A stretch of DNA of 64,000 nucleotides from Gammaproteobacteria bacterium (GCA_021648145.1 JAKITI010000003.1:1-64000); one strand, 5' to 3'. Numbered from the stretch's first letter, positions 51,398 through 62,755 are shown. Program-made: numbers and translations. The notes: generated by a model from the sequence alone, not told the origin.

Positions 51398-51682
51398 CTA
51401 CCTGCCATAAGAGTTTTTTCTGTGTTTGAAATCGACTATAAATACGATAACCTTCTGGTTGTCTATCAGATAAAATAGCCTGTAGTTGCCTATCCTGTAT
51501 CGATAGTAGCCCTCGAATTCTCCTTTTAGATTTTTAATGTTTGTTCCAAAAAATGGGTTGTTTCGTAATTGTGGATAGACAATTTGTTTGATTTTTTGAT
51601 ACAGTTTTTCATCAATTTTTTTCTTGGTTTTTTCAAACACCTTTGTTTCAGCGATTTTGAATTCAGACAATGGTGTAATCAC
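51398..51682 (-). CDS. RelE/ParE-type toxin
   Basis: This protein of 90-94 residues has the RelE/ParE pattern: a first helical half (FEKTKKKIDEKLYQKIKQIV), then LKGEFEGYYRYRIGNYRLFY, a short strand and the end FIVDFKHRKNSY. Such toxins are usually ribosome-dependent mRNA interferases, or gyrase poisons in the ParE branch. The long form starts at GTG 51682, overlapping the antitoxin stop by 20 bases. A TTG at 51670, seven bases behind AAGGTG, gives a more typical N-terminus and may be the true start. It forms a minus-strand pair with the antitoxin upstream. Confidence 0.85.
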   Translation of the reverse strand: MITPLSEFKIAETKVFEKTKKKIDEKLYQKIKQIVYPQLRNNPFFGTNIKNLKGEFEGYYRYRIGNYRLFYLIDNQKVIVFIVDFKHRKNSYGR

Positions 51683-51902
51683 CTTTTTTGATATCCTTCA
51701 AGCCACTTCTCAAGTTTGAGAGAAGTTCTGAGTCGCTGAGTATCTGTTTCATCTCTTTGTCATCGACATAGCTTTCTGATGTTAAATATTGCAATGTTGC
51801 GAATTCAATAAAGTTTGAAAGGTTTCGCCGTTGCCCGTCGGCTGCCATTTTTATCATTTGATAGATATTGTCATCAACTCTAAGTGTGACTGTTTTAGAC
51901 AT
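51663..51902 (-). CDS. Ribbon-helix-helix-type antitoxin
   Basis: The 79-residue protein begins with an RHH-like DNA-binding part (SKTVTLRVDDNIYQMIKMAA, then RNLSNFIEFATLQYL). An acidic, probably disordered C-terminal half likely wraps the toxin. The ATG at 51902 has GGGGAAC upstream; longer in-frame extensions are not plausible. Gene order antitoxin-toxin with overlap is standard for such modules, which repress their own promoter. It lies between the flagellar operon and the first chemoreceptor gene. Confidence 0.85.
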   Translation of the reverse strand: MSKTVTLRVDDNIYQMIKMAADGQRRNLSNFIEFATLQYLTSESYVDDKEMKQILSDSELLSNLRSGLKDIKKGDYTIV

Positions 51903-52006
51903 AATGTTCCCCGTCCTTTTTGAATTAATAATGTTGCTGTTGTATTCAATTTTATTCAAATGAATTCGCCAAGTCAAATATAGTGGTGTTAATAGATTTG
52001 TAAATT

Positions 52007-52033
52007 TCAAGCAAATCAATTGATCGCCGATAT
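52007..52033 (+). promoter_or_regulatory. Sigma-28-like promoter of the haem chemoreceptor gene
   Basis: TCAA (52007-52010), 15 bases, then GCCGATAT (52026-52033) match the sigma-28 consensus with the -10 differing only in its last base. It lies about 32 bases upstream of the chemoreceptor start, tying the gene to the flagellar regulon. Confidence 0.65.
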
Positions 52034-52064
52034 TGCTTGAAAGATTGTAAATTAATAGGGAAAT

Positions 52065-53768
52065 ATGGATATGAAATGGAATAAGTTAGGCTTGTTATGG
52101 CAAATGATGATCCCTGTGTTTGCTGTTTTTTTTATTGGTATTATTGTGACTGTATCGCTTATTCCTGGGCAGATTGAGCGCAATGTGATTGAAACGGCGA
52201 TACAATCATCAGAGCAGACCGTTCAGCAGTTCAAAACACTGCGTAAATATTATGCCGACTATGTCGTTCAACCTGTTAAGGGCAGTGGTGATATCAGTGT
52301 GGCTATTGATCATAAGCAGAACAATAAAGCCATTCCACTTCCAGCGACGATGATTCATGATTTAAGTGAACTGTCTGCAGGTGAAGGTGTGACTGTAAAA
52401 CTTTACAGCGATTTTCCTTTTCCAAATCGGGCATCACGCCAGCTCGAAGCGTTTGAATCAGATGCCTGGAGTGCCATCACTCGTAACCCAGATGAAACCT
52501 ATAGTAAACGAGATGTTATTGACGGCAAGCAGGTGCTTCGAGTTGCCATTGCAGACAAAATGGCTAGCAAAGTCTGTGTAGGTTGTCATAACAGTCATCC
52601 ACAAACACCTAAAAATAACTGGCAGCTGGGGGATGTGCGCGGCATCCTTGAGGTCACGACCGTCATTGATGACCAACTCTCTTCTGGAGCACTTATAAGT
52701 AAAGAGGTTTTACTGTTATTGCTTGGAGTTCTGGCGATTTCGATGCTTGCAATATATTTTGCCTATAAAATGACAATTGATCGGCGTTTGAGTGAAATAA
52801 ACCGAGCCATGAGCAGCTTGGCACAAGGGTATAGTGATCTTGATAGTCGGATGGATAGCTCTGGTAATGATGAAATCAGTATATTGGCTAAAAATTTCAA
52901 CAGCTTTATAAGCAAACTTCAAGAGCTGATTCATGGAGTAGCAAATTCGAGCTCTAGTGTAGAGATTGCTGCGAGTGAAATGTCTGATTTGGCTAATCAA
53001 TCCAATCAAAAAATTTCACAGCAAAAAAATGAAACGGATCAAGTCACCTTTGCGGTAGAAGAGATGGCAACGGCTGTTCAGGAGGTCGCAAGTAACGCGG
53101 CGACCGCAGAGAGTGCAGCGAGTAGAGCGCATGATGAAGCCGTAAATGGACAGGCTGTCGTTGCAAAAACAATCGCTTCAATTAATTTGTTGGCTGGTGA
53201 AGTGGAAAAAGCCTCTGATGTGATAAAAACGCTTGAAACAGAGAGTGAGTCAATTGGTTCTGTGTTGGATGTAATAAAGGGCATTGCTGAGCAAACGAAT
53301 CTGTTAGCGCTGAATGCTGCAATTGAAGCCGCACGTGCGGGAGAGCAAGGACGAGGGTTTGCTGTGGTGGCCGAAGAAGTTCGAACATTGGCGAGCCGTA
53401 CACAAGAATCAACGCTTGAAATACAAGATATGATTGAGCGTATTCAGGCCAGCGCAAGAAGTGCTGTAAGTGTGATGAATGGTGGAAGTTCACAAGCAGG
53501 TGAGAGTGTGCAGCAGGTGGCGATGGCTGAAGTGTCGCTAAAAGCCATTATGAACGTTATTAATGAAATTCATGAAGTTAACGCAGGAACTGCAAGTGCT
53601 GCAGAGCAGCAGAGTGCGACTGCGGAGCAAATTAAAAACAGTATTGTCGCAATCGGTGATATTGCAGGACAAGCGACTATGATGGCAGAGAAAACTGCAC
53701 AAGGCGGTGGGAAATTGGTTGATTTAACAAAGGAGCTTAATACAAAATTTGACCACTTCAAGTCATAG
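52065..53768 (+). CDS. Chemoreceptor (MCP) with a Tll0287/DUF3365-like c-haem sensor domain
   Basis: This 567-residue membrane chemoreceptor has a first helix (about 11-33), a periplasmic domain (34-210), a second helix (about 214-234), a HAMP domain and a cytoplasmic methyl-accepting domain with the CheA/CheW tip ([20 protein letters not shown] and [18 protein letters not shown]). The periplasmic part has the Tll0287/DUF3365 look ([16 protein letters not shown]) and a CVGCH c-type haem attachment motif at 171-175. It should therefore carry covalent haem and sense redox state, O2, NO or CO; the ligand is inferred. There is no C-terminal methylation-enzyme pentapeptide. Its end overlaps the convergent hemerythrin gene by 11 bases. 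Confidence 0.9.
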
Positions 53769-54156
53769 AGTCGAACCGCTGTATAAATTGAGCGGTGATG
53801 GAATCCATTGTATCAACATGTAGATAAAACCAGGGTGTGACAGTATCAGAAATGTATTTTTCCAAGGCTTCTCTGTCATGCCTGTTGTCCCAGTCAATGA
53901 CAGCACTTTTCAGTGAATCTATAACCTGATCATGTTCACCCTTATGCATTGGGTATGGTGGAAAACTGATACGTTGCATCTCACACTCTTCATGTGAAAA
54001 ATGTTCACAGGTATGCTCAACTAGTTTAGTTAGAAGTTCACTTATTATTTTATTGGAATCATTTTTCAATGCTGTATTGAGCTGGGTTAATTGCTCAACG
54101 AATTCAGCATGGTCTTTGTTCATAAAATCAATAGCGACAGTGACTGGAAGCTGCAT
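53758..54156 (-). CDS. Bacteriohemerythrin
   Basis: This soluble protein of about 132 residues is a single-domain hemerythrin, a di-iron O2-binding fold also used for O2 delivery or NO handling. All seven expected ligands are visible when counted from the ATG at 54156: His16, His52 and Glu56 (HFSHE), His71 and His75 (HKGEH), His113 and Asp118 (HVDTMD). The start has AGG eight bases upstream; an in-frame extension to 54234 would add a non-family tail. It is divergent from the truncated haemoglobin gene, with candidate operators in between, and convergent with the haem chemoreceptor. Confidence 0.93.
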
Positions 54157-54193
54157 ATAGGTAACCTGGAATTTGTTTTTACTGTAGATTATT

Positions 54194-54225
54194 TTAGATA
54201 TACATCTAATTTTTAGTTGGGTCAA
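54194..54225 (-). promoter_or_regulatory. Hemerythrin promoter overlapped by an inverted repeat
   Basis: On the minus strand TTGACC (54225-54220) and TATATC (54202-54197) are 17 bases apart, a good sigma-70 promoter about 40 bases upstream of the hemerythrin ATG. A perfect dyad, TTAGAT-4-ATCTAA (54194-54209), covers the -10 element and contains AGATGTAT, the core of an NsrR half-site. Repressor binding here would block transcription. Confidence 0.5.
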
Positions 54226-54251
54226 GGTTGACATTTTTTCATTGTAATAAA

Positions 54252-54274
54252 AAGATGTATTTAAAATACTTCTC
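54252..54274 (+). promoter_or_regulatory. NsrR-like operator between hemerythrin and haemoglobin genes
   Basis: Two 11-base half-sites lie around one central base: AAGATGTATTT (54252-54262) and AAATACTTCTC (54264-54274). The NsrR consensus is an 11-1-11 repeat of AAGATGYATTT type; the left half matches fully and the right half at 9 of 11 positions. It lies about 105 bases upstream of the haemoglobin start. The nsrR gene itself is not in the window. Confidence 0.6.
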
Positions 54275-54379
54275 TAAAGAATTTTGGTAAGATGCCGAAT
54301 GCGTAGGTGCTTTGATAAGGGTCTAATGCATATTAAATGTTGAAGCTTTTTTTATTAATTTTAAAAGGGAAATAAAGAG

Positions 54380-54763
54380 ATGGGTGGAGAAATGAGTAAC
54401 AAAAGTTTGTTTGAAAAATTGGGTGGTGAAGCTGCGGTTGATGCAGCAGTTGATATTTTTTATCGTAAAGTTCTTGGTGATGACAGAATCAGTCATTGGT
54501 TCGAAGGGACTGATATGGAAAAACAGGCCGTTAAGCAAAAAGCTTTTCTGACCTATGCTTTTGGTGGCCCTAATAATTATACAGGAATGGATATGCGTAA
54601 AGGGCATGCTCATCTGGTAGAAAAAGGCTTGGGTGATAGTGATTTTGACGCGGTTGTTGAGCTTCTTGGAGCAACATTGAAGGAGCTGGGTGTTGCGGAT
54701 GATCTCATTGCAGAAGTTGCTGCAACGGCTGAAACAACACGTAAAGATGTATTAGGCCGGTAA
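54380..54763 (+). CDS. Group I truncated haemoglobin
   Basis: The 127-residue protein is a complete 2-on-2 globin of group I (TrHbN/GlbN type), a family linked to NO dioxygenation and O2 binding. It shows LFEKLGGEAAVDAAVDIFY with Tyr28 at position B10, KQKAFLTYAFGGPNNYTGMD, and the proximal His76 in MRKGHAHLVEKGL, followed by the G and H helices. A second ATG at 54392 is a possible start. It is followed 21 bases later by a flavin/iron-sulphur reductase gene, probably its electron donor, and preceded by an NsrR-like operator. Confidence 0.94.
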   Translation: MGGEMSNKSLFEKLGGEAAVDAAVDIFYRKVLGDDRISHWFEGTDMEKQAVKQKAFLTYAFGGPNNYTGMDMRKGHAHLVEKGLGDSDFDAVVELLGATLKELGVADDLIAEVAATAETTRKDVLGR

Positions 54764-54784
54764 AAATAGAAAGGTCGCCGCACA

Positions 54785-55753
54785 ATGTCTAGTGTAAGTT
54801 ATGACGGTCAGGTTTATGAAGTTCTTGATGGTGAGTCTGTTCTTCAATGTTTACATCGCAATAGTGTGGCGATTCCCTCATCATGTGGGAATGGTATTTG
54901 CCAAAGCTGCTTGATGCGTGCAACGGAGGGTATGCCGCCTGAAAGTTCACAAAAAAATCTGAAAAAAAGTTTGAAAGAGAGTGGTTATTTTCTTGCCTGT
55001 ATCTGCAAACCTGAAGGTGACCTTGAGGTCACTTTGGCTGGCGATGAAGTCTTTCATCGAACAGCGGTTCGTATTGTTGATAAATATCAAATGAATGGCC
55101 AAATTTTAAGGTTGCGTTTGGAGTGCCTTGAAGCGTTTGAGCACAAAGCGGGGCAGTTTATTAACTTACATCGACCCGATGGTTTGACACGTAGCTACTC
55201 TATTGCAACTTCACTGCCAGATAATATGCTGGAACTTCATGTCGAATATTTGCCAAATGGTAAAATGAGCGCCTGGATTCATGATGAGTTACAGGTGGGT
55301 GATCTACTGGAAATTGATGGGCCTCATGGCGATTGTTATTATTCACCCGATGATCAAGAACAAAATCTGCTACTGATTGGTACGGGATCAGGGTTGGCTC
55401 CATTAGTGGGTATTCTTCACGATGCGTTGGCACAAGGGCACCGAGGTCATATTCACCTGTTTCATGGAGTGATTGATGTCAGCAGGCTTTATATGGTTGA
55501 TGAATTGTGCCAGTTAGCCGATGCACATAAAAATGTTTTTTATACACGATGCATTTCTGGGGATGTTGTACCCGAGGATTGTTATGCTGGGTTTGCCAAT
55601 GCTGCGGCACTAGAGCAGTACACCAGTTTGACAGGTTGGCGACTGTTCCTTTGTGGTCATCCAGATATGGTGAAAGATAGCAGGAAAAAAGCTTTTCTTG
55701 CAGGCGCTTCATTGCAAGAAATTTTTAGTGATCCGTTTGAGTTTAGTCATTAA
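54785..55753 (+). CDS. 2Fe-2S ferredoxin-FAD-NAD(P)H oxidoreductase, probable globin reductase
   Basis: The 322-residue protein is a three-part reductase: a plant-type 2Fe-2S domain (about 1-90; ligands in SSCGNGICQSCL and a fourth Cys in YFLACICKP), an FAD-binding barrel (about 92-190; RSYSIATS and the downstream GKMSAWIH), and an NAD(P)-binding domain (about 195-320; LIGTGSGLAPLVGIL and FLCGHPDMV). This layout is known from phenol and toluate-type oxygenase reductases, but no oxygenase is near. With the truncated haemoglobin 21 bases upstream, it most likely re-reduces that globin; this pairing is inferred. Confidence 0.88.
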   Translation: MSSVSYDGQVYEVLDGESVLQCLHRNSVAIPSSCGNGICQSCLMRATEGMPPESSQKNLKKSLKESGYFLACICKPEGDLEVTLAGDEVFHRTAVRIVDKYQMNGQILRLRLECLEAFEHKAGQFINLHRPDGLTRSYSIATSLPDNMLELHVEYLPNGKMSAWIHDELQVGDLLEIDGPHGDCYYSPDDQEQNLLLIGTGSGLAPLVGILHDALAQGHRGHIHLFHGVIDVSRLYMVDELCQLADAHKNVFYTRCISGDVVPEDCYAGFANAAALEQYTSLTGWRLFLCGHPDMVKDSRKKAFLAGASLQEIFSDPFEFSH

Positions 55754-56901
55754 TTTACACGTAGCTCACGAATTACATCTGTATGTGCCAATATTCCGAC
55801 CAAACGCTGTTCATCGTTCAGTATGGGAATATGACGAATTCCTTTCTCTTTGAAAATTGAAAAAGCATGGGCAACAGGTTCGTTTTCTTGCAAAGTAATC
55901 ACAGGCGATGTCATCAACTGCCCTACCACTTCAGGTTTAATTGAGGTCAGTTCGCCCATCTGTTTGGTCACTATTTTTAGGCGCTCCTCAATGCTTTTTT
56001 TATGATATTTATCGGCCTCTTTTATGAAATCACAGGCAGTGATGATGCCACTGATTCGTCCAGATTTATCAATCACTGGAATGCTACGTATTTTGTGTTC
56101 TTGCATGAGCCTCCATGCTTCATCCAGACTACTGCCAAACTCTACTGAAATAACAGGGTGAGTCATAATATCCTTGCAAGCCTTCGTTCCCAAATTGCGT
56201 TTATGAGCGAGCAGAGTTGCATTTGTATAAATATTGTTTAAATCTGTAATGGAAACATCTATATAAGCGTTGATCTCTTGCAGCGCCTTGTTTAAATCAT
56301 CTTTTGAAAAAGGCAGCAGGTTTGGCAAGTCACTTTCTTTGCTCTCTTCGTCATCAAAAACAAAGGTTAACTCTTTTGTTTTACGTCTCTTGGCGAGTAT
56401 CAGGCGTGTCAACCAGACTGCCACGGCCATAATTAACACATTCAGGCCAACAGGCACGAGTACGTAAAGATACCCCAAAGCATGAATTTGATCACCACCA
56501 ACGACAGCAACCAATGCAGCTGCGCCTCCTGGAGGGTGTAAACAGCTCAATTCATGCATCACAAAAATAGCGAGCCCCACAGCTAAAGCACTGGCTAGAA
56601 ACAGATCAGGAATCCATTGAGCACAGGTAACTCCCACAATGGCTGACACCAAGTGCCCGCCTACAAATGGCCAAGGCTGAGTTAATTGGCTATGTGGCGC
56701 TGCATAGAGTAGTACTGCGGCGGCTCCCATTGAAGCGACTACAAAAGGTAATCCAGCATCACCTACAAAGTGATGGCTAACCCATGTGACAAGACCAATG
56801 CCAATAATGGCACCTAATGAAGATAAGAACACTTCATCCTGGGATTGCCTGGCTGGTATTTCGCCAAAAACAAATTGTTTTAACCTTATTAGAAGATCCA
56901 A
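55750..56901 (-). CDS. HPP-family membrane protein with two CBS domains
   Basis: The 383-residue protein has an N-terminal HPP domain with about four membrane helices (about 27-175), including the namesake motif in SCLHPPGGAAALVAVVGG, and a cytoplasmic tail with two CBS domains (about 240-300 and 320-380; DIMTHPVISVEFGSSLDEAW and LMTSPVITLQENEPVAHAFS). HPP proteins of cyanobacteria and plant plastids transport nitrite, and CBS pairs usually sense adenine nucleotides, so nucleotide-gated nitrite or anion transport is a reasonable guess. The start appears to be a TTG behind TAGGCC. Its stop overlaps the end of the convergent reductase gene by four bases. Confidence 0.85.
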   Translation of the reverse strand: MDLLIRLKQFVFGEIPARQSQDEVFLSSLGAIIGIGLVTWVSHHFVGDAGLPFVVASMGAAAVLLYAAPHSQLTQPWPFVGGHLVSAIVGVTCAQWIPDLFLASALAVGLAIFVMHELSCLHPPGGAAALVAVVGGDQIHALGYLYVLVPVGLNVLIMAVAVWLTRLILAKRRKTKELTFVFDDEESKESDLPNLLPFSKDDLNKALQEINAYIDVSITDLNNIYTNATLLAHKRNLGTKACKDIMTHPVISVEFGSSLDEAWRLMQEHKIRSIPVIDKSGRISGIITACDFIKEADKYHKKSIEERLKIVTKQMGELTSIKPEVVGQLMTSPVITLQENEPVAHAFSIFKEKGIRHIPILNDEQRLVGILAHTDVIRELRVN

Positions 56902-56988
56902 TTGATGGCCTATACATTATGATTGGTTAAGTTATCGTCATTTGTTGCCGCAATTAAAACTATATTTAGAATAAATTGGGTGGAATTG

Positions 56989-58257
56989 GTGGCAAATTTT
57001 TTTATTAAGCCTGCCAGGATGGCGAATGCAGCATTTAAGTTTTTATCTAAGGTCGTACTGTTAGCAGCAATAATGCTGGGAAGTACGGCAACCTTGAGCT
57101 ATTTGGTTAATAATCAATACCAGCAACAAATTAATATATTACAGAAAGATAACGCATTAGAAAAAGTTCAGGAAATTGAGAAAAAGCGCTTGGATTTACT
57201 TCTGTTTTCGGTGTTGATTTTTGCTCTGTTTATTTACATATTGACCGGTTATTACTCGGGTACTATGCGAGCTATTAATGATCTGAAAAGAAATAGTCAG
57301 GCGATTGTGGATGGTGAATTGTCACTGCATCTTAAATCAACAACGCATGATGAATTGGGTTCGTTATATGGCAGTTTAGAGACAATTTCTACAGAGTTTG
57401 AACGTGCCATCAGTGAAATTACAGAGTCAGCTGCTGAAGTGCAAAGTGCTGCATCTGAACTGTCAATAGCCGCTAAACGAGAAGTTAAAAACTCACAGCA
57501 ACAGGTGCAATCTGTTTCTGCAATTACTTTGGCTATTGAGGCGGCTGCACAAAATAGCCTTGAAATCGCAGGTCAGGCAAAAGATGTTAAAACGGCGGTT
57601 GATCATACTGATCAGCTTGCGGGTGATGGTGGGGAAGTGGTTATTAAATCTATTGAAAGTATTCAGCAGACATTTGAATCTGTTGAAAATTCTGAGCGTT
57701 TATTAACAACGCTGGGAGAGCGCTCTAATGAAATCAGCAAAATTATTGAAGTGATTCAGGAAATTGCAGCACAGACCAATTTGCTTGCATTGAATGCAGC
57801 GATTGAAGCGGCGCGTGCGGGTGAGCATGGTCGTGGATTTGCTGTAGTTTCTGACGAGGTGCGTTCCTTATCTCAGCGAACCCATCAGGCAACGGCTCAA
57901 ATTACCGGCATGGTGAGTACAATTCAGGAAGAAATTTCGAATAATATTTCCAGTATGGAAGCAGTTCATAATAATGTTGTGAGAGGTGTTGAGTGGGGTA
58001 ATAAGGCAGGAGATCATTTGCAGCAAATTAGAATAAATGCGATGAATACGTCTAATGTGATGCATGAAATTACTGAAGCAATATTACAACAGAGCAATAA
58101 AACTCAAGAGATTGCGAAGCATATTGAAAATATTAACCAAGCCGCTATTGAAAATGGTGCAGCATTTGATGAAACATCAACAACAGCAGATTATTTGCAA
58201 ACACTTTCTCAGCACATGGTTGATGTTATTCCAAATAATAAATCGTCGCATTCATAA
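56989..58257 (+). CDS. Minimal chemoreceptor (MCP) with almost no periplasmic domain
   Basis: This roughly 422-residue chemoreceptor has two membrane helices separated by only about 30 residues (first [19 protein letters not shown]; second [18 protein letters not shown]), then HAMP ([20 protein letters not shown]) and a full signalling domain with [20 protein letters not shown] and [18 protein letters not shown]. It therefore lacks a normal ligand-binding domain and may take its signal from a partner; the NIT-like membrane protein gene begins 40 bases downstream. The start is uncertain: GTG 56989 behind GGGTGG is chosen, TTG 56923 is longer and ATG 57019 shorter. Confidence 0.85.
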
Positions 58258-58297
58258 ATTCAGAAGTTGTCATGATTACTAAGTGGGGAAAGCAGTA

Positions 58298-59254
58298 ATG
58301 ATTTTAACTCTGTCCATAATAGTTGTTAGTGCCATTTTGGCGTTAACTATTACAACGATTCATTGTAAGAGGTCAGCCTTATTTATTCGGCATCAGCGCC
58401 AAGGTATTGGCGCTATTGGTGAAATTCGTAAGTTGATTGAGTTCATGCCTCAGCATCGAGGCATGTCTAACTCACTGCTTCTAGGTGATGACTCTTTTAA
58501 AGAAAAAATTATTGAAGTTCAAAATAAGGTAGACAAAAGTATTCAGGAAATTGATAAAACGGGGGATATTGAAGGAAAGTTACTGCGTTGGAAGATAATC
58601 AAAGCCGACTGGGTCTCATTAAAAAATTGTTATTCGGGTTTGTCAGCATCTAAAAGTTTTCAACAACATTCAGATTTGATCAATGAAGTGCTCTATTTAA
58701 TTGTTGATGTTGCAAACGATTCGGGGCTTTACTTTCATGAAGATAAAAAGTGCCGGGATTTGACCGTCGGGCTATTTTATTATTTGCCGATGATGATTGA
58801 ATTTGTTGCGCGTGCTCGTGGTGTGGGAGCCGGTGTTGCAGCACAAAACAGAGTAATCATATCTGCACGTATTAAACTTCAGTTTTTACATAAGCGGGTC
58901 AATAAAAGTTTAGAATCTATTCATTCAACGCTGGCTCAATCATTGGCGGATACCAGTTATCAAGGTCAATCACCTGAAGTACTCATTACTGAAGGCCTTC
59001 AGCCTACCTATTTCTTTATGCACATTCTGCAGGAAAATTTATTAGGCGAACGTGGAGTTGCGATCAGTTCCACTGAATACTTTGACGCAGGTACATCGGC
59101 AATATCAACGAGCTTTGAGCTGTTTGATACGTTAATACCTATTGTGAATGACTATTCAGATAAGGATGAAGTGAAACTGAAGCGGCAGATCAAATGGCTC
59201 TGGTTTTTTGGTTTTATTATCACTGGGGCAACTGCATTTTTTGTACTGATTTGA
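58298..59254 (+). CDS. Membrane protein with NIT-like (nitrate/nitrite-sensing) domain and no output domain
   Basis: The 318-residue protein has one membrane helix at each end (about 2-20 and 298-317) around a large helical periplasmic part. That part resembles the NIT domain of bacterial nitrate/nitrite receptors: the first conserved region is IRKLIEFMPQHRGMSNSLLL and the second MIEFVARARGVGAGVAAQNR, each with the typical Arg-Gly. NIT domains normally precede a HAMP-MCP, kinase or ANTAR module, but here nothing follows the second helix. The ATG at 58298 is preferred to GTG 58283 because GGGGAA lies at the right distance. It follows the minimal chemoreceptor by 40 bases, suggesting one functional unit. 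Confidence 0.75.
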   Translation: MILTLSIIVVSAILALTITTIHCKRSALFIRHQRQGIGAIGEIRKLIEFMPQHRGMSNSLLLGDDSFKEKIIEVQNKVDKSIQEIDKTGDIEGKLLRWKIIKADWVSLKNCYSGLSASKSFQQHSDLINEVLYLIVDVANDSGLYFHEDKKCRDLTVGLFYYLPMMIEFVARARGVGAGVAAQNRVIISARIKLQFLHKRVNKSLESIHSTLAQSLADTSYQGQSPEVLITEGLQPTYFFMHILQENLLGERGVAISSTEYFDAGTSAISTSFELFDTLIPIVNDYSDKDEVKLKRQIKWLWFFGFIITGATAFFVLI

Positions 59255-59260
59255 TCGTTC

Positions 59261-60457
59261 CTATCCCAAGCGTCCATCTACGCGTCGCATGACCAAAACC
59301 GGCAGATAGATCAAGAAAAATAGAGCAAATGAACTGATCCATAATACTTGTGATATGCCGATCCATATTGTGTAGTGATCAGAAAATAATAGCGGAAAGA
59401 TAACTCTGACGATTGACCCTGTGAGCAATAGCAATAAGCTCGGAACTAATAGCTTGGGTGGCTCAGCAATATTTCTGCCTGTATGGCCCAATGAGACGCG
59501 AGCCATCATGCCCATCGTCATCATGCCAATTCCTCCCATCGCAAATGCGTGTATCGTAATGCTGGCCGTTAAATCTAAAAACAGAGCTAATGCGGTTAAT
59601 AAAAAACCAAAAATAAGAAATATATAGGCGATATAAAGAATCCAGAGCAGTGGTTTTTTCCAGATTCCAACGGTGTACCATCCCCATAGCCTAATGCTAT
59701 GTAGCACAAATAAAGTGGTAGCAAGTAAAGCAGTGATGGTGTCGAGTGCGGTAAAACTGGCAGTGATCCAGAATATAAAAAATAGCACTAGGCTTGAAAC
59801 ATCCAGCCATTGCCAATTTTTAATTTGAGCAGGGTCATCCACTCCTTTTTCAATGAAAAATGGAATCACTCGCCGACCTAACATGAGAATCAGACCAATA
59901 ACAAGGTAGAGGCCGGATAACAAACCTTGTTGTACACCATTTTCAATCACTCCAGCATTGCCAAGATAAAAAAGAATATTGCTTAAAAGTATCAGAATAA
60001 GTTTGGCGATAATGCCTAGTTGCTTGCGACTATTGGCTTTGATGATGGGATAAGTGAGTGCGACAATTAAAACCAATAAAAACAGGCAGTCTAGCACAGC
60101 AATAATCTCAATGGGTGTTTGGGTTAAAGCTAAAATTCGAGTGACTGCCCAGAGTGTAAAAAGCCCCGCTAGCTGATAGCCTTGCAGGGTTTGAATGCCT
60201 GTCCAGTTTTTAACCGCTGTCAGTAAAAAACCTGCAATGACGGCAAGGCTATAACCATAAATCATTTCATGGGCATGCCAGGTGGTTGCGGGTAAACCGG
60301 CAAGCCCAAGGTTCCAGCCCAGTAGGTAGACTCCCAGCCATACCGTCATGGCTAAAATAGAAAATGCAGCAGCCCCCAGAAAAAATGGACGGAAGCCTAA
60401 ACTAAATAGAGCAAACTTGGGAATATTGCGTGCGGGTGGTTCAATATTAATAAGCAT
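59261..60457 (-). CDS. nnrS: NnrS family haem-copper membrane protein
   Basis: NnrS is a polytopic membrane protein that protects against nitrosative stress and is controlled by NO regulators in denitrifiers and Vibrio. The 398-residue protein has about twelve hydrophobic segments. Family marks are the N-terminal LFSLGFRPFFLGAAAFSILA, the metal-binding TWHAHEMIYGYSLAVIAGFL followed by LTAVKNWTG, RVIPFFIEKGV, HAFAMGGIGMMTMGMMARVS and LGHTGR. Its stop lies six bases from the convergent NIT-like gene. No clear NsrR or FNR-type site was found in the 146 bases upstream. Confidence 0.92.
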   Translation of the reverse strand: MLINIEPPARNIPKFALFSLGFRPFFLGAAAFSILAMTVWLGVYLLGWNLGLAGLPATTWHAHEMIYGYSLAVIAGFLLTAVKNWTGIQTLQGYQLAGLFTLWAVTRILALTQTPIEIIAVLDCLFLLVLIVALTYPIIKANSRKQLGIIAKLILILLSNILFYLGNAGVIENGVQQGLLSGLYLVIGLILMLGRRVIPFFIEKGVDDPAQIKNWQWLDVSSLVLFFIFWITASFTALDTITALLATTLFVLHSIRLWGWYTVGIWKKPLLWILYIAYIFLIFGFLLTALALFLDLTASITIHAFAMGGIGMMTMGMMARVSLGHTGRNIAEPPKLLVPSLLLLLTGSIVRVIFPLLFSDHYTIWIGISQVLWISSFALFFLIYLPVLVMRRVDGRLG

Positions 60458-61363: not shown

Positions 61364-62317
61364 TTAGAAATTATGCTCAATGCCTAGGCCAAAAACGTTT
61401 GTCTCTTTCTTTGCATCATCTTCAATGGCTGAATAATAAGCAAATGTTTTTGTCATTTTGCTTAATTCATAATCAACACCGAAAGCTATTTGTGTATTGC
61501 CTTTTCTGGTTTCATCAGAGGTGGCGTATTGCGCTTTAAATTTGAATGTATCCATTTTGTAGTAGCCGCTGATAACAAAAGCATCTTCCGCATCTTTGGA
61601 TCCATCTGAAGGTTCTGATTGTTGCCATAGAGCGCCAGCACCAAAGCCTTTTCCTTTGTAAAGTGCTGTTGCACGAACAGCGTCTTTATCTTTAATGGCA
61701 TCATCCATTGCAACAGCAAAATACATGGCATCACGTTTATAATTAAGGGACACGGATTTGCCATCAGCAATACCATCTTCTTTATCCGTGCCAGCTTTTT
61801 CGCCTGGTTGTAGAAGTGCTGTGATAGATGCGCCTTCAAAACTTGGTGATGTATACATAATGGCGTTTTTTGCTCGCACTTCACCACTTAATATATTTTT
61901 TAAGTCACCGTTCTTTAAATTATTAAACATGTCAATTTTGCCTTGAGACGTTTTGAACGGTGTGTCATGACGACCTAAAATAATTTTTCCAGCTACGCCT
62001 TTCAGGCCAACATACGCATTACGTTGAGTAAAAGGGGTATTATCTTTCGCTGTATCATCTGGGTATATACCATATTCCAGTTTATAAATGACATTCAGGT
62101 TTTCCTTGATTTCAGTGTTACCTTTAAACCCTAAACGAGAGCTAGCATTTGCAATCTCCCAGGCTTTATCGGTGCCGTCATCAATATTGATCACAGAAAG
62201 GTTGATTTTTCCATAAATTTTGCCATCAATTGGGCCTTCAGCTAATACGGAAGAGGAGCCAAAAGCAATCACAATAGCAGCTGTAATGGGTAGAGTTTTT
62301 TTTGTATGTATATTCAT
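61364..62317 (-). CDS. Gram-negative porin
   Basis: The 317-residue outer-membrane porin has a signal peptide (TKKTLPITAAIVIAFGSSSV, cut after VLA) and alternating beta-strands with the family's first strand (GPIDGKIYGKINLSVINID), the loop-3-like region KIILGRHDTPFKTSQGKID, and a C-terminal strand ending in Phe (NVFGLGIEHNF), the BAM recognition signal. It resembles the general Gram-negative porin family of beta- and gammaproteobacteria. Substrate selectivity cannot be read. The ATG at 62317 gives a clean signal peptide. It is divergent from the next porin. Confidence 0.92.
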   Translation of the reverse strand: MNIHTKKTLPITAAIVIAFGSSSVLAEGPIDGKIYGKINLSVINIDDGTDKAWEIANASSRLGFKGNTEIKENLNVIYKLEYGIYPDDTAKDNTPFTQRNAYVGLKGVAGKIILGRHDTPFKTSQGKIDMFNNLKNGDLKNILSGEVRAKNAIMYTSPSFEGASITALLQPGEKAGTDKEDGIADGKSVSLNYKRDAMYFAVAMDDAIKDKDAVRATALYKGKGFGAGALWQQSEPSDGSKDAEDAFVISGYYKMDTFKFKAQYATSDETRKGNTQIAFGVDYELSKMTKTFAYYSAIEDDAKKETNVFGLGIEHNF

Positions 62318-62755
62318 ATAGTTAAATGCCCGAAGGTATCTCCTTTGTGGTATTGGATAGTTTACACATTGCAATATTACTAACGAAATATTACAAGAAT
62401 ATTAAGAATCCTGAAGTTTGACCTGTTTTAGTGCAACACTGCATTTTGGCGGTTATCGAAAATACAATCAGATTTTTTGCTAAACCTTGTTGTTTGGGTA
62501 CTTATGATTTTGCAGGTCACTAGCAAGTTGATCTTGAAGGAAAACCTTAAGTTAATTTGGTGGTGCGCATTAAAAACGTGAAGTTTATCAAAATTTCAGG
62601 GGGGTGGGTGGTATGCATGAAGGTTTCGATCAATTTAGAATCCTGATGATTTTTATAAGAAATAGTTGCATTCCCAGTCATTGCTGTTATAAATGCATTC
62701 GTCATGCTATTTAAGTATGGCTTTTTTTAGCAATAATAATTCGGAGAGTTATATC
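62318..62755. other. Intergenic region between divergent porin genes
   Basis: This 438-base stretch has no convincing gene. It holds a good promoter for the plus-strand porin (62666-62693) and an AT-rich part (about 62365-62410) with repeated AATATTA words that may contain the other porin's promoter. No PhoB box or other known operator was recognised. Confidence 0.5.
62666..62693 (+). promoter_or_regulatory. Probable sigma-70 promoter of the plus-strand porin
   Basis: TTGCAT (62666-62671) and TATAAA (62688-62693) are 16 bases apart. The likely start of transcription, near 62700, would leave a leader of about 55 bases before the GTG start of the porin gene. Confidence 0.55.

Follow-up and report, generated by a model that had tools for sequence, protein, structure and literature searches.

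Analysis of a 64,000-nucleotide stretch of the genome of Gammaproteobacteria bacterium (GCA_021648145.1, JAKITI010000003.1:1-64000; the whole stretch is called the window here) points, with moderate confidence, to a conserved nitrogen-oxide locus that joins the removal of nitric oxide (NO) to taxis. The locus is a block of eight genes at positions 52007-60457. It encodes a chemoreceptor (methyl-accepting chemotaxis protein, MCP) with a c-haem domain (MCP1), a bacteriohemerythrin (Hr), a truncated haemoglobin (trHb), a reductase (Red), an HPP membrane protein with CBS domains (HPP), a minimal MCP (MCP2), a NIT protein and NnrS. Open reading frame (ORF) calls and Pfam confirm every gene at the place given in a first-pass annotation made from the sequence. 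An NsrR-type operator between Hr and trHb gives direct sequence support for NO handling. MCP2 and the NIT protein, which had been listed as two separate items, are better read as halves of one receptor and probably work as a single bipartite unit.

The locus is kept in a congener and its core recurs in other families

The single congener compared is a metagenome-assembled genome, Gammaproteobacteria bacterium isolate S141_38 (G001; contig WFXF01000017.1, stretch L016). All eight genes occur there in the same order and orientation, and the encoded proteins are 93% (trHb), 87% (NnrS), 85% (MCP1, Red and HPP), 71% (MCP2), 67% (NIT) and 66% (Hr) identical to those of the window. To the right of NnrS the similarity continues into ParA (85%) and then a porin (76%). 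A NarK-type nitrate/nitrite transporter lies further right in both genomes, and a PP2C-kinase protein comes next in the window's genome. The left flanks are unrelated: the window has flagellar genes and a RelE-type pair there, and the genes of G001 encode, judged by eye, a squalene/phytoene-synthase-like protein and one of the MobB-MobA type for the molybdenum cofactor.

A smaller unit, trHb-Red-HPP-MCP-NIT, recurs outside the genus (families of the sampled genomes carry f-numbers here, the window's own being f1). Two genomes of f128 (G337 and G376) have trHb and Red on the plus strand, HPP on the minus strand and a minimal MCP and NIT again on the plus strand, matching the window in order and strands; in a third f128 genome (G371) trHb, Red, MCP and NIT are colinear and the MCP frame is broken in the assembly. 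Three genomes of f77 (G078, G204 and G306) show another arrangement, in which trHb and HPP on the plus strand face NIT and MCP on the minus strand without Red; a NasA/FdhA-type molybdoenzyme adjoins it in G204 and G306. In the set of extended loci, HPP and trHb are neighbours in f1, f128, f77, f53, f36 and f144. Outside the genus, the locus stretches examined showed no c-haem MCP, hemerythrin or NnrS next to the core. The five-gene core is almost certainly a real conserved unit. The conserved co-occurrence to be expected of one locus, and an arrangement beyond chance, are both borne out by the block in the congener and the core in other families. The number of gene ends meeting within 4-11 bases, put at four in the first-pass annotation, had to be corrected to three: MCP1/Hr overlap by 11 nucleotides, Red/HPP overlap by 4 and NIT/NnrS are separated by 6.

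An NsrR-type operator and a globin-reductase pair point to NO

The operator of the window has a counterpart at the same position in G001, AAGATGTATTTGAAATGCATCTT. With up to three mismatches allowed, the operator pattern, which is longer than the published core, matches once only in the window, once in L016 and once in the whole genome of each genus member; shuffles and the reversed control gave zero matches. Compared with the core of the published NsrR consensus, gATGyAT-N5-ATrCATc (PMC1274295), the window operator has one mismatch and the G001 operator none. Each genus member encodes a single close NsrR-like protein, with three cysteines and beside recR- and orn-like genes (by eye).

The association extends to other members of the class. 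Loci in which trHb is followed by Red carry the published core upstream in 26 of 38 cases at up to two mismatches (dinucleotide shuffles: 0.37%) and in 32 of 38 at up to three (4.4%), the effective number of loci being below 38 because some come from related genomes. The core was found upstream of none of nine trHb genes without Red, even at up to three mismatches, and an NsrR-like gene lies next to trHb-Red at about ten loci. It is quite probable that Hr and trHb-Red respond to NO via NsrR. Tandem double group I truncated globins of about 270-300 amino acids, without an adjacent reductase, also occur (L138, L133, L141, L144, L147, L150, L153 and L161); the tandem-globin loci tested (L104, L099 and L109) have no NsrR-type site.

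Matches to trHb are present in 66 of 369 sampled class members, and Red adjoins trHb across the class. The group I trHb gene of the window stands beside an FNR-type reductase gene, which at the gene level is the make-up of a two-component NO dioxygenase. By PDB sequence comparison its nearest solved relative is Synechocystis cyanoglobin, with Chlamydomonas THB1 among the next. AVKQ stands at the position of cyanoglobin RAHQ, so that the cyanoglobin His is replaced by a Lys, which recalls the Lys ligand of THB1. Alignment to a solved bacteriohemerythrin shows all seven iron ligands in Hr (H42, H78, E82, H97, H101, H139 and D144).

Small Tll0287 proteins accompany globins and nitrate genes in relatives, and soluble NIT proteins of relatives are likewise found in nitrate loci. 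In G047 a Tll0287 haem protein and a globin share a locus with a nap operon and, beside it, a soluble NIT protein; G038 and G045 have Tll0287-globin loci resembling it. A recurring locus (L073, L076 and L077) combines an FAD oxidoreductase and a multihaem-type cytochrome with a single-domain globin and a small Tll0287 haem protein; two of its three examples lie close to nap or nitrate-transporter genes.

A minimal chemoreceptor gene is paired with a separate NIT gene

MCP2 has two transmembrane (TM) helices with a loop of 27 residues between them (1-38 residues across eight minimal MCPs, by hydropathy), too short a stretch to hold a ligand domain in the periplasm. The stand-alone NIT proteins have, on hydropathy only, an N-terminal membrane helix and usually a second one at the extreme C-terminus with nothing after it. 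The pair occurs in six family codes: f1, f128, f77, f132 (G133), f65 (G066) and f151 (G263). MCP comes first and NIT second on one strand, with overlaps of 4-7 nucleotides or gaps of 3-25 in the eight pairs measured. An in-frame MCP-NIT fusion was considered for G066 and G263 and rejected, the genes there being overlapping or adjacent in different frames.

The NIT protein of the window scores 18.7 bits with PF08376, for which the curated cut-off is 24.9; its homologue in G337 scores 29.5, and the profile is matched by 12 of 14 aligned family members. H58-R59-G60 and R179 are invariant in these 14 NITs. PDB sequence searches with NIT, as a single sequence or as a 14-row profile, gave no match. 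In a tree of NIT domains (n=52), 32 fused NITs and one unclear protein are separated from 12 split and 7 soluble NITs by a branch with 100/100 support, a position which argues that the split form is an old lineage and no local accident. Nitrate or nitrite as the ligand of the receptor is about as likely as not.

Transmembrane chemoreceptors are mostly single chains, and the passage of signals across the membrane is therefore studied within one protein. A conserved two-chain receptor with its sensor on a separate membrane protein would, if real, let lateral transmembrane signalling be tested in a natural system.

The window's genome also encodes a one-chain NIT-HAMP-MCP-hemerythrin protein of 824 amino acids (L011 3971-6445, minus strand; G000:C17), a nitrate-type chemoreceptor with hemerythrin joined to it, so that one chain of the same cell unites parts that the window encodes in separate genes. 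In the other genus of the family, HPP is in line with an MCP (L092 2881-4479; G002:C105). This MCP begins with a TM hairpin and lacks a periplasmic domain, and its 4HB-type domain unusually follows the signalling domain.

Proposed mechanism and alternatives

The sequences directly show the genes, the operator with its conservation, the recurrent core and the paired genes of split MCP and NIT. Beyond these we infer a mechanism that covers NO-dependent derepression, catalysis, transport, the identity of the ligand and contact between MCP2 and the NIT protein. NO would inactivate the presumed NsrR repressor, whose gene is at another place in the genome, and loss of repression would free the divergent Hr/trHb promoter, allowing Hr, trHb and Red to be made. 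The latter two would act as a two-protein NO dioxygenase that turns NO and O2 into nitrate, and HPP may carry nitrite across the membrane. The NIT protein would bind nitrate or nitrite in the periplasm and signal through its membrane helices to the TM hairpin and HAMP domain of MCP2 and hence to CheA, while MCP1 might contribute a haem-based redox or gas input. We tentatively suggest, at slightly less than even confidence, that the minimal MCP and NIT form an undescribed two-gene class of transmembrane chemoreceptor. A periplasmic nitrate/nitrite subunit would signal laterally through the membrane to a receptor without a ligand domain, and the pair would stay next to the NO dioxygenase to let cells navigate by the substrates and products of this enzyme. 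The open-access literature searched held no account of this neighbourhood or of a NIT gene paired with an MCP gene, which is weak evidence of novelty because subscription papers lay outside the search.

Several observations weigh against such a coupled locus. The best NCBIfam family of the NsrR-like protein is NsrR (5e-39), at 133 bits compared with a curated cut-off of 182 bits. The NsrR-type site covers Hr and trHb-Red only: within the window none was found upstream of NnrS, HPP, either MCP or NIT, and a single shared NO response is unsupported because NnrS, HPP and both MCPs lack the site. The complete eight-gene set was found in one genus only, and the MCP-NIT pairs of f132, f65 and f151 have no adjacent trHb. 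As for the receptor, an AlphaFold2 model of the NIT protein from two sequences reached a pLDDT (predicted local distance difference test) of 51. In P. aeruginosa, one NIT receptor domain failed to bind either nitrate or nitrite (PMC6381276); at least one such domain thus binds neither ion, and for this reason the two are uncertain as ligands here. The earlier proposal of one locus for NO detoxification and taxis thus keeps its footing in the conserved block and core and in the operator, and is narrowed by an NsrR site that reaches Hr and trHb-Red only.

The restricted operator, the MCP-NIT pairs without trHb and the fact that trHb-Red mostly occurs without MCP-NIT nearby across the class also favour the most serious alternative, a loose thematic cluster. 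NO detoxification (Hr, trHb-Red and NnrS) and nitrogen-oxide taxis (the MCPs and NIT) would then be neighbours through their usefulness around nitrate, without shared control or coupling, and MCP-NIT may still be one receptor. We consider this rather unlikely, since five-gene order and strands are common to two families and a third arrangement exists in f77, which is more than a theme alone is expected to keep.

Less probable still, the minimal MCP may function by itself in energy or redox taxis, or read HPP, and NIT may have a different partner, for instance HPP or an unlinked kinase. HPP does lie beside MCP and NIT genes in three families, and the G002 genome, where HPP is in line with a TM-hairpin MCP, shows that an HPP-MCP link without NIT exists. 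However, the MCP and NIT genes are without exception same-strand neighbours, the pair persists without HPP in f132, f65 and f151, and one-chain NIT-MCP proteins are common, all of which speaks against this reading.

The families of Hr, trHb and c-haem MCP each include O2-binding members, and the window's genome encodes a chemoreceptor with a fused hemerythrin. An O2 or redox locus, in which the main task of these three proteins is to carry or sense O2 and any connection with NO is incidental, might be read from this. We regard it as quite improbable in view of the NsrR-type operator, which is strongly associated with the trHb-Red pair, and of the NnrS, NIT and NarK context. O2 handling, also put forward in the first-pass annotation, stays a guess drawn from family names. 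Finally, a recent, decaying break-up of a fused NIT-HAMP-MCP gene is very improbable: both halves do resemble parts of such proteins, which are present in the window's genome, but the tree does not place the window NIT inside the fused NITs of relatives (all 32 lie across the 100/100 branch), twelve stand-alone NITs are spread over six families, the MCP retains two TM helices and NIT has its own helix or helices.

A locus that joins NO removal to taxis would be a concrete test case for whether bacteria match the detoxification of NO to their swimming in gradients of nitrogen oxides; its predicted operator is unique and its gene pairs are defined.

Gene inventory and surroundings

Comparison with the congener and relatives places the true starts of trHb, Hr, MCP2 and NIT probably downstream of the ORF calls (Table 1). 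An Rfam search of the window gave zero matches, and general promoter and terminator scans of the window did no better than chance level.

Table 1. Features of the eight-gene block, in window coordinates
Feature	Position	Strand	Description and evidence
MCP1	52065..53768	+	chemoreceptor with periplasmic c-haem (CVGCH) Tll0287-like domain, HAMP and MCPsignal; Pfam
Hr	53758..54234	-	bacteriohemerythrin; probable start ATG 54156; Pfam
TTGACA	54228..54233	+	possible -35 element of the trHb promoter; kept in the congener; read from alignment
NsrR-type operator	54252..54274	.	AAGATGTATTTAAAATACTTCTC; between Hr and trHb
trHb	54380..54763	+	group I truncated haemoglobin; probable start ATG 54392; Pfam Bac_globin
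Red	54785..55753	+	2Fe-2S/FAD/NAD reductase, presumed electron donor of trHb; Pfam Fer2/FAD/NAD
HPP	55750..56901	-	membrane protein that may transport nitrite; Pfam TM_HPP and 2 CBS
MCP2	56923..58257	+	minimal MCP: TM hairpin, HAMP-like (below cut-off), MCPsignal; probable start GTG near 56980
NIT	58283..59254	+	stand-alone NIT protein, TM - NIT - TM, without HAMP or signalling domain; probable start ATG 58298
NnrS	59261..60457	-	Pfam 1e-98; kept in the congener; no NsrR-type site upstream

Among four molybdopterin-family matches in the window's genome, one is NasA/Fdh-like, one is NasC/Fdh-like and lies beside NirB and NirD, and a third is arsenite-oxidase-like. No NapA equivalog was seen in this genome, and nirS, nirK and norB were not searched for. 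Together, NarK, the NasA-like protein and NirBD suggest assimilatory nitrate use. An arsenite-oxidase-like large subunit with a TAT/Rieske-like small subunit is encoded at L246 5393-11118 (G000:C11), with c-type cytochromes upstream.

Toxin-antitoxin genes are found at the edge of the block or inside it: in the window, a RelE-type toxin gene with its partner lies to the left of MCP1 (51398-52019), and in G001 a PIN-like toxin gene (by eye) and an antitoxin-like stretch stand between NIT and NnrS (L016 11110-11865). One of two neighbouring porins (window 61364-62374, L016 14002-15063) is 28% identical between the two genomes, as if replaced or fast evolving, with adjacent genes at 76-87%.

Relation to known systems

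The globin-reductase-NsrR part of the locus is already known from Legionella pneumophila, where a glbN-ferredoxin reductase operon under NsrR has been reported (PMC3820574). There, too, the gene of an FNR-type reductase follows that of a group I truncated globin; the window differs in that the operator region is common to trHb-Red and Hr and in that HPP and receptor genes are joined to the set. The locus also shares the operator consensus and the NO-detoxification role of NsrR regulons with hmp and nnrS (PMC1274295), whereas it has a truncated globin and reductase in place of Hmp, and its nnrS lacks the site.

The receptor pair resembles CetA/CetB of Campylobacter jejuni (PMC2628428), in which an MCP composed of a TM hairpin, HAMP and a signalling domain only is linked to a sensor encoded by a separate neighbouring gene. 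CetB, however, is reported to be a peripheral PAS protein, while the sensor of the window is a NIT protein with its own membrane helices and predicted to be periplasmic, so that the pair works like CetA/CetB at most and is no member of that kind. One-chain NIT-HAMP-MCP receptors (PF08376; PA4520, PMC6381276) have sensor and signalling domains identical in kind, but the window has two genes in reversed order, separate anchors and a separate lineage in the NIT tree. Finally, the co-component systems VtrA/VtrC and ToxR/ToxS (PMC9214523) resemble the pair in that two membrane proteins are encoded by genes that overlap in part and the product of the downstream gene carries a periplasmic sensor part; their domains are unrelated, and their output is transcription, whereas that of the window pair would be chemotaxis.

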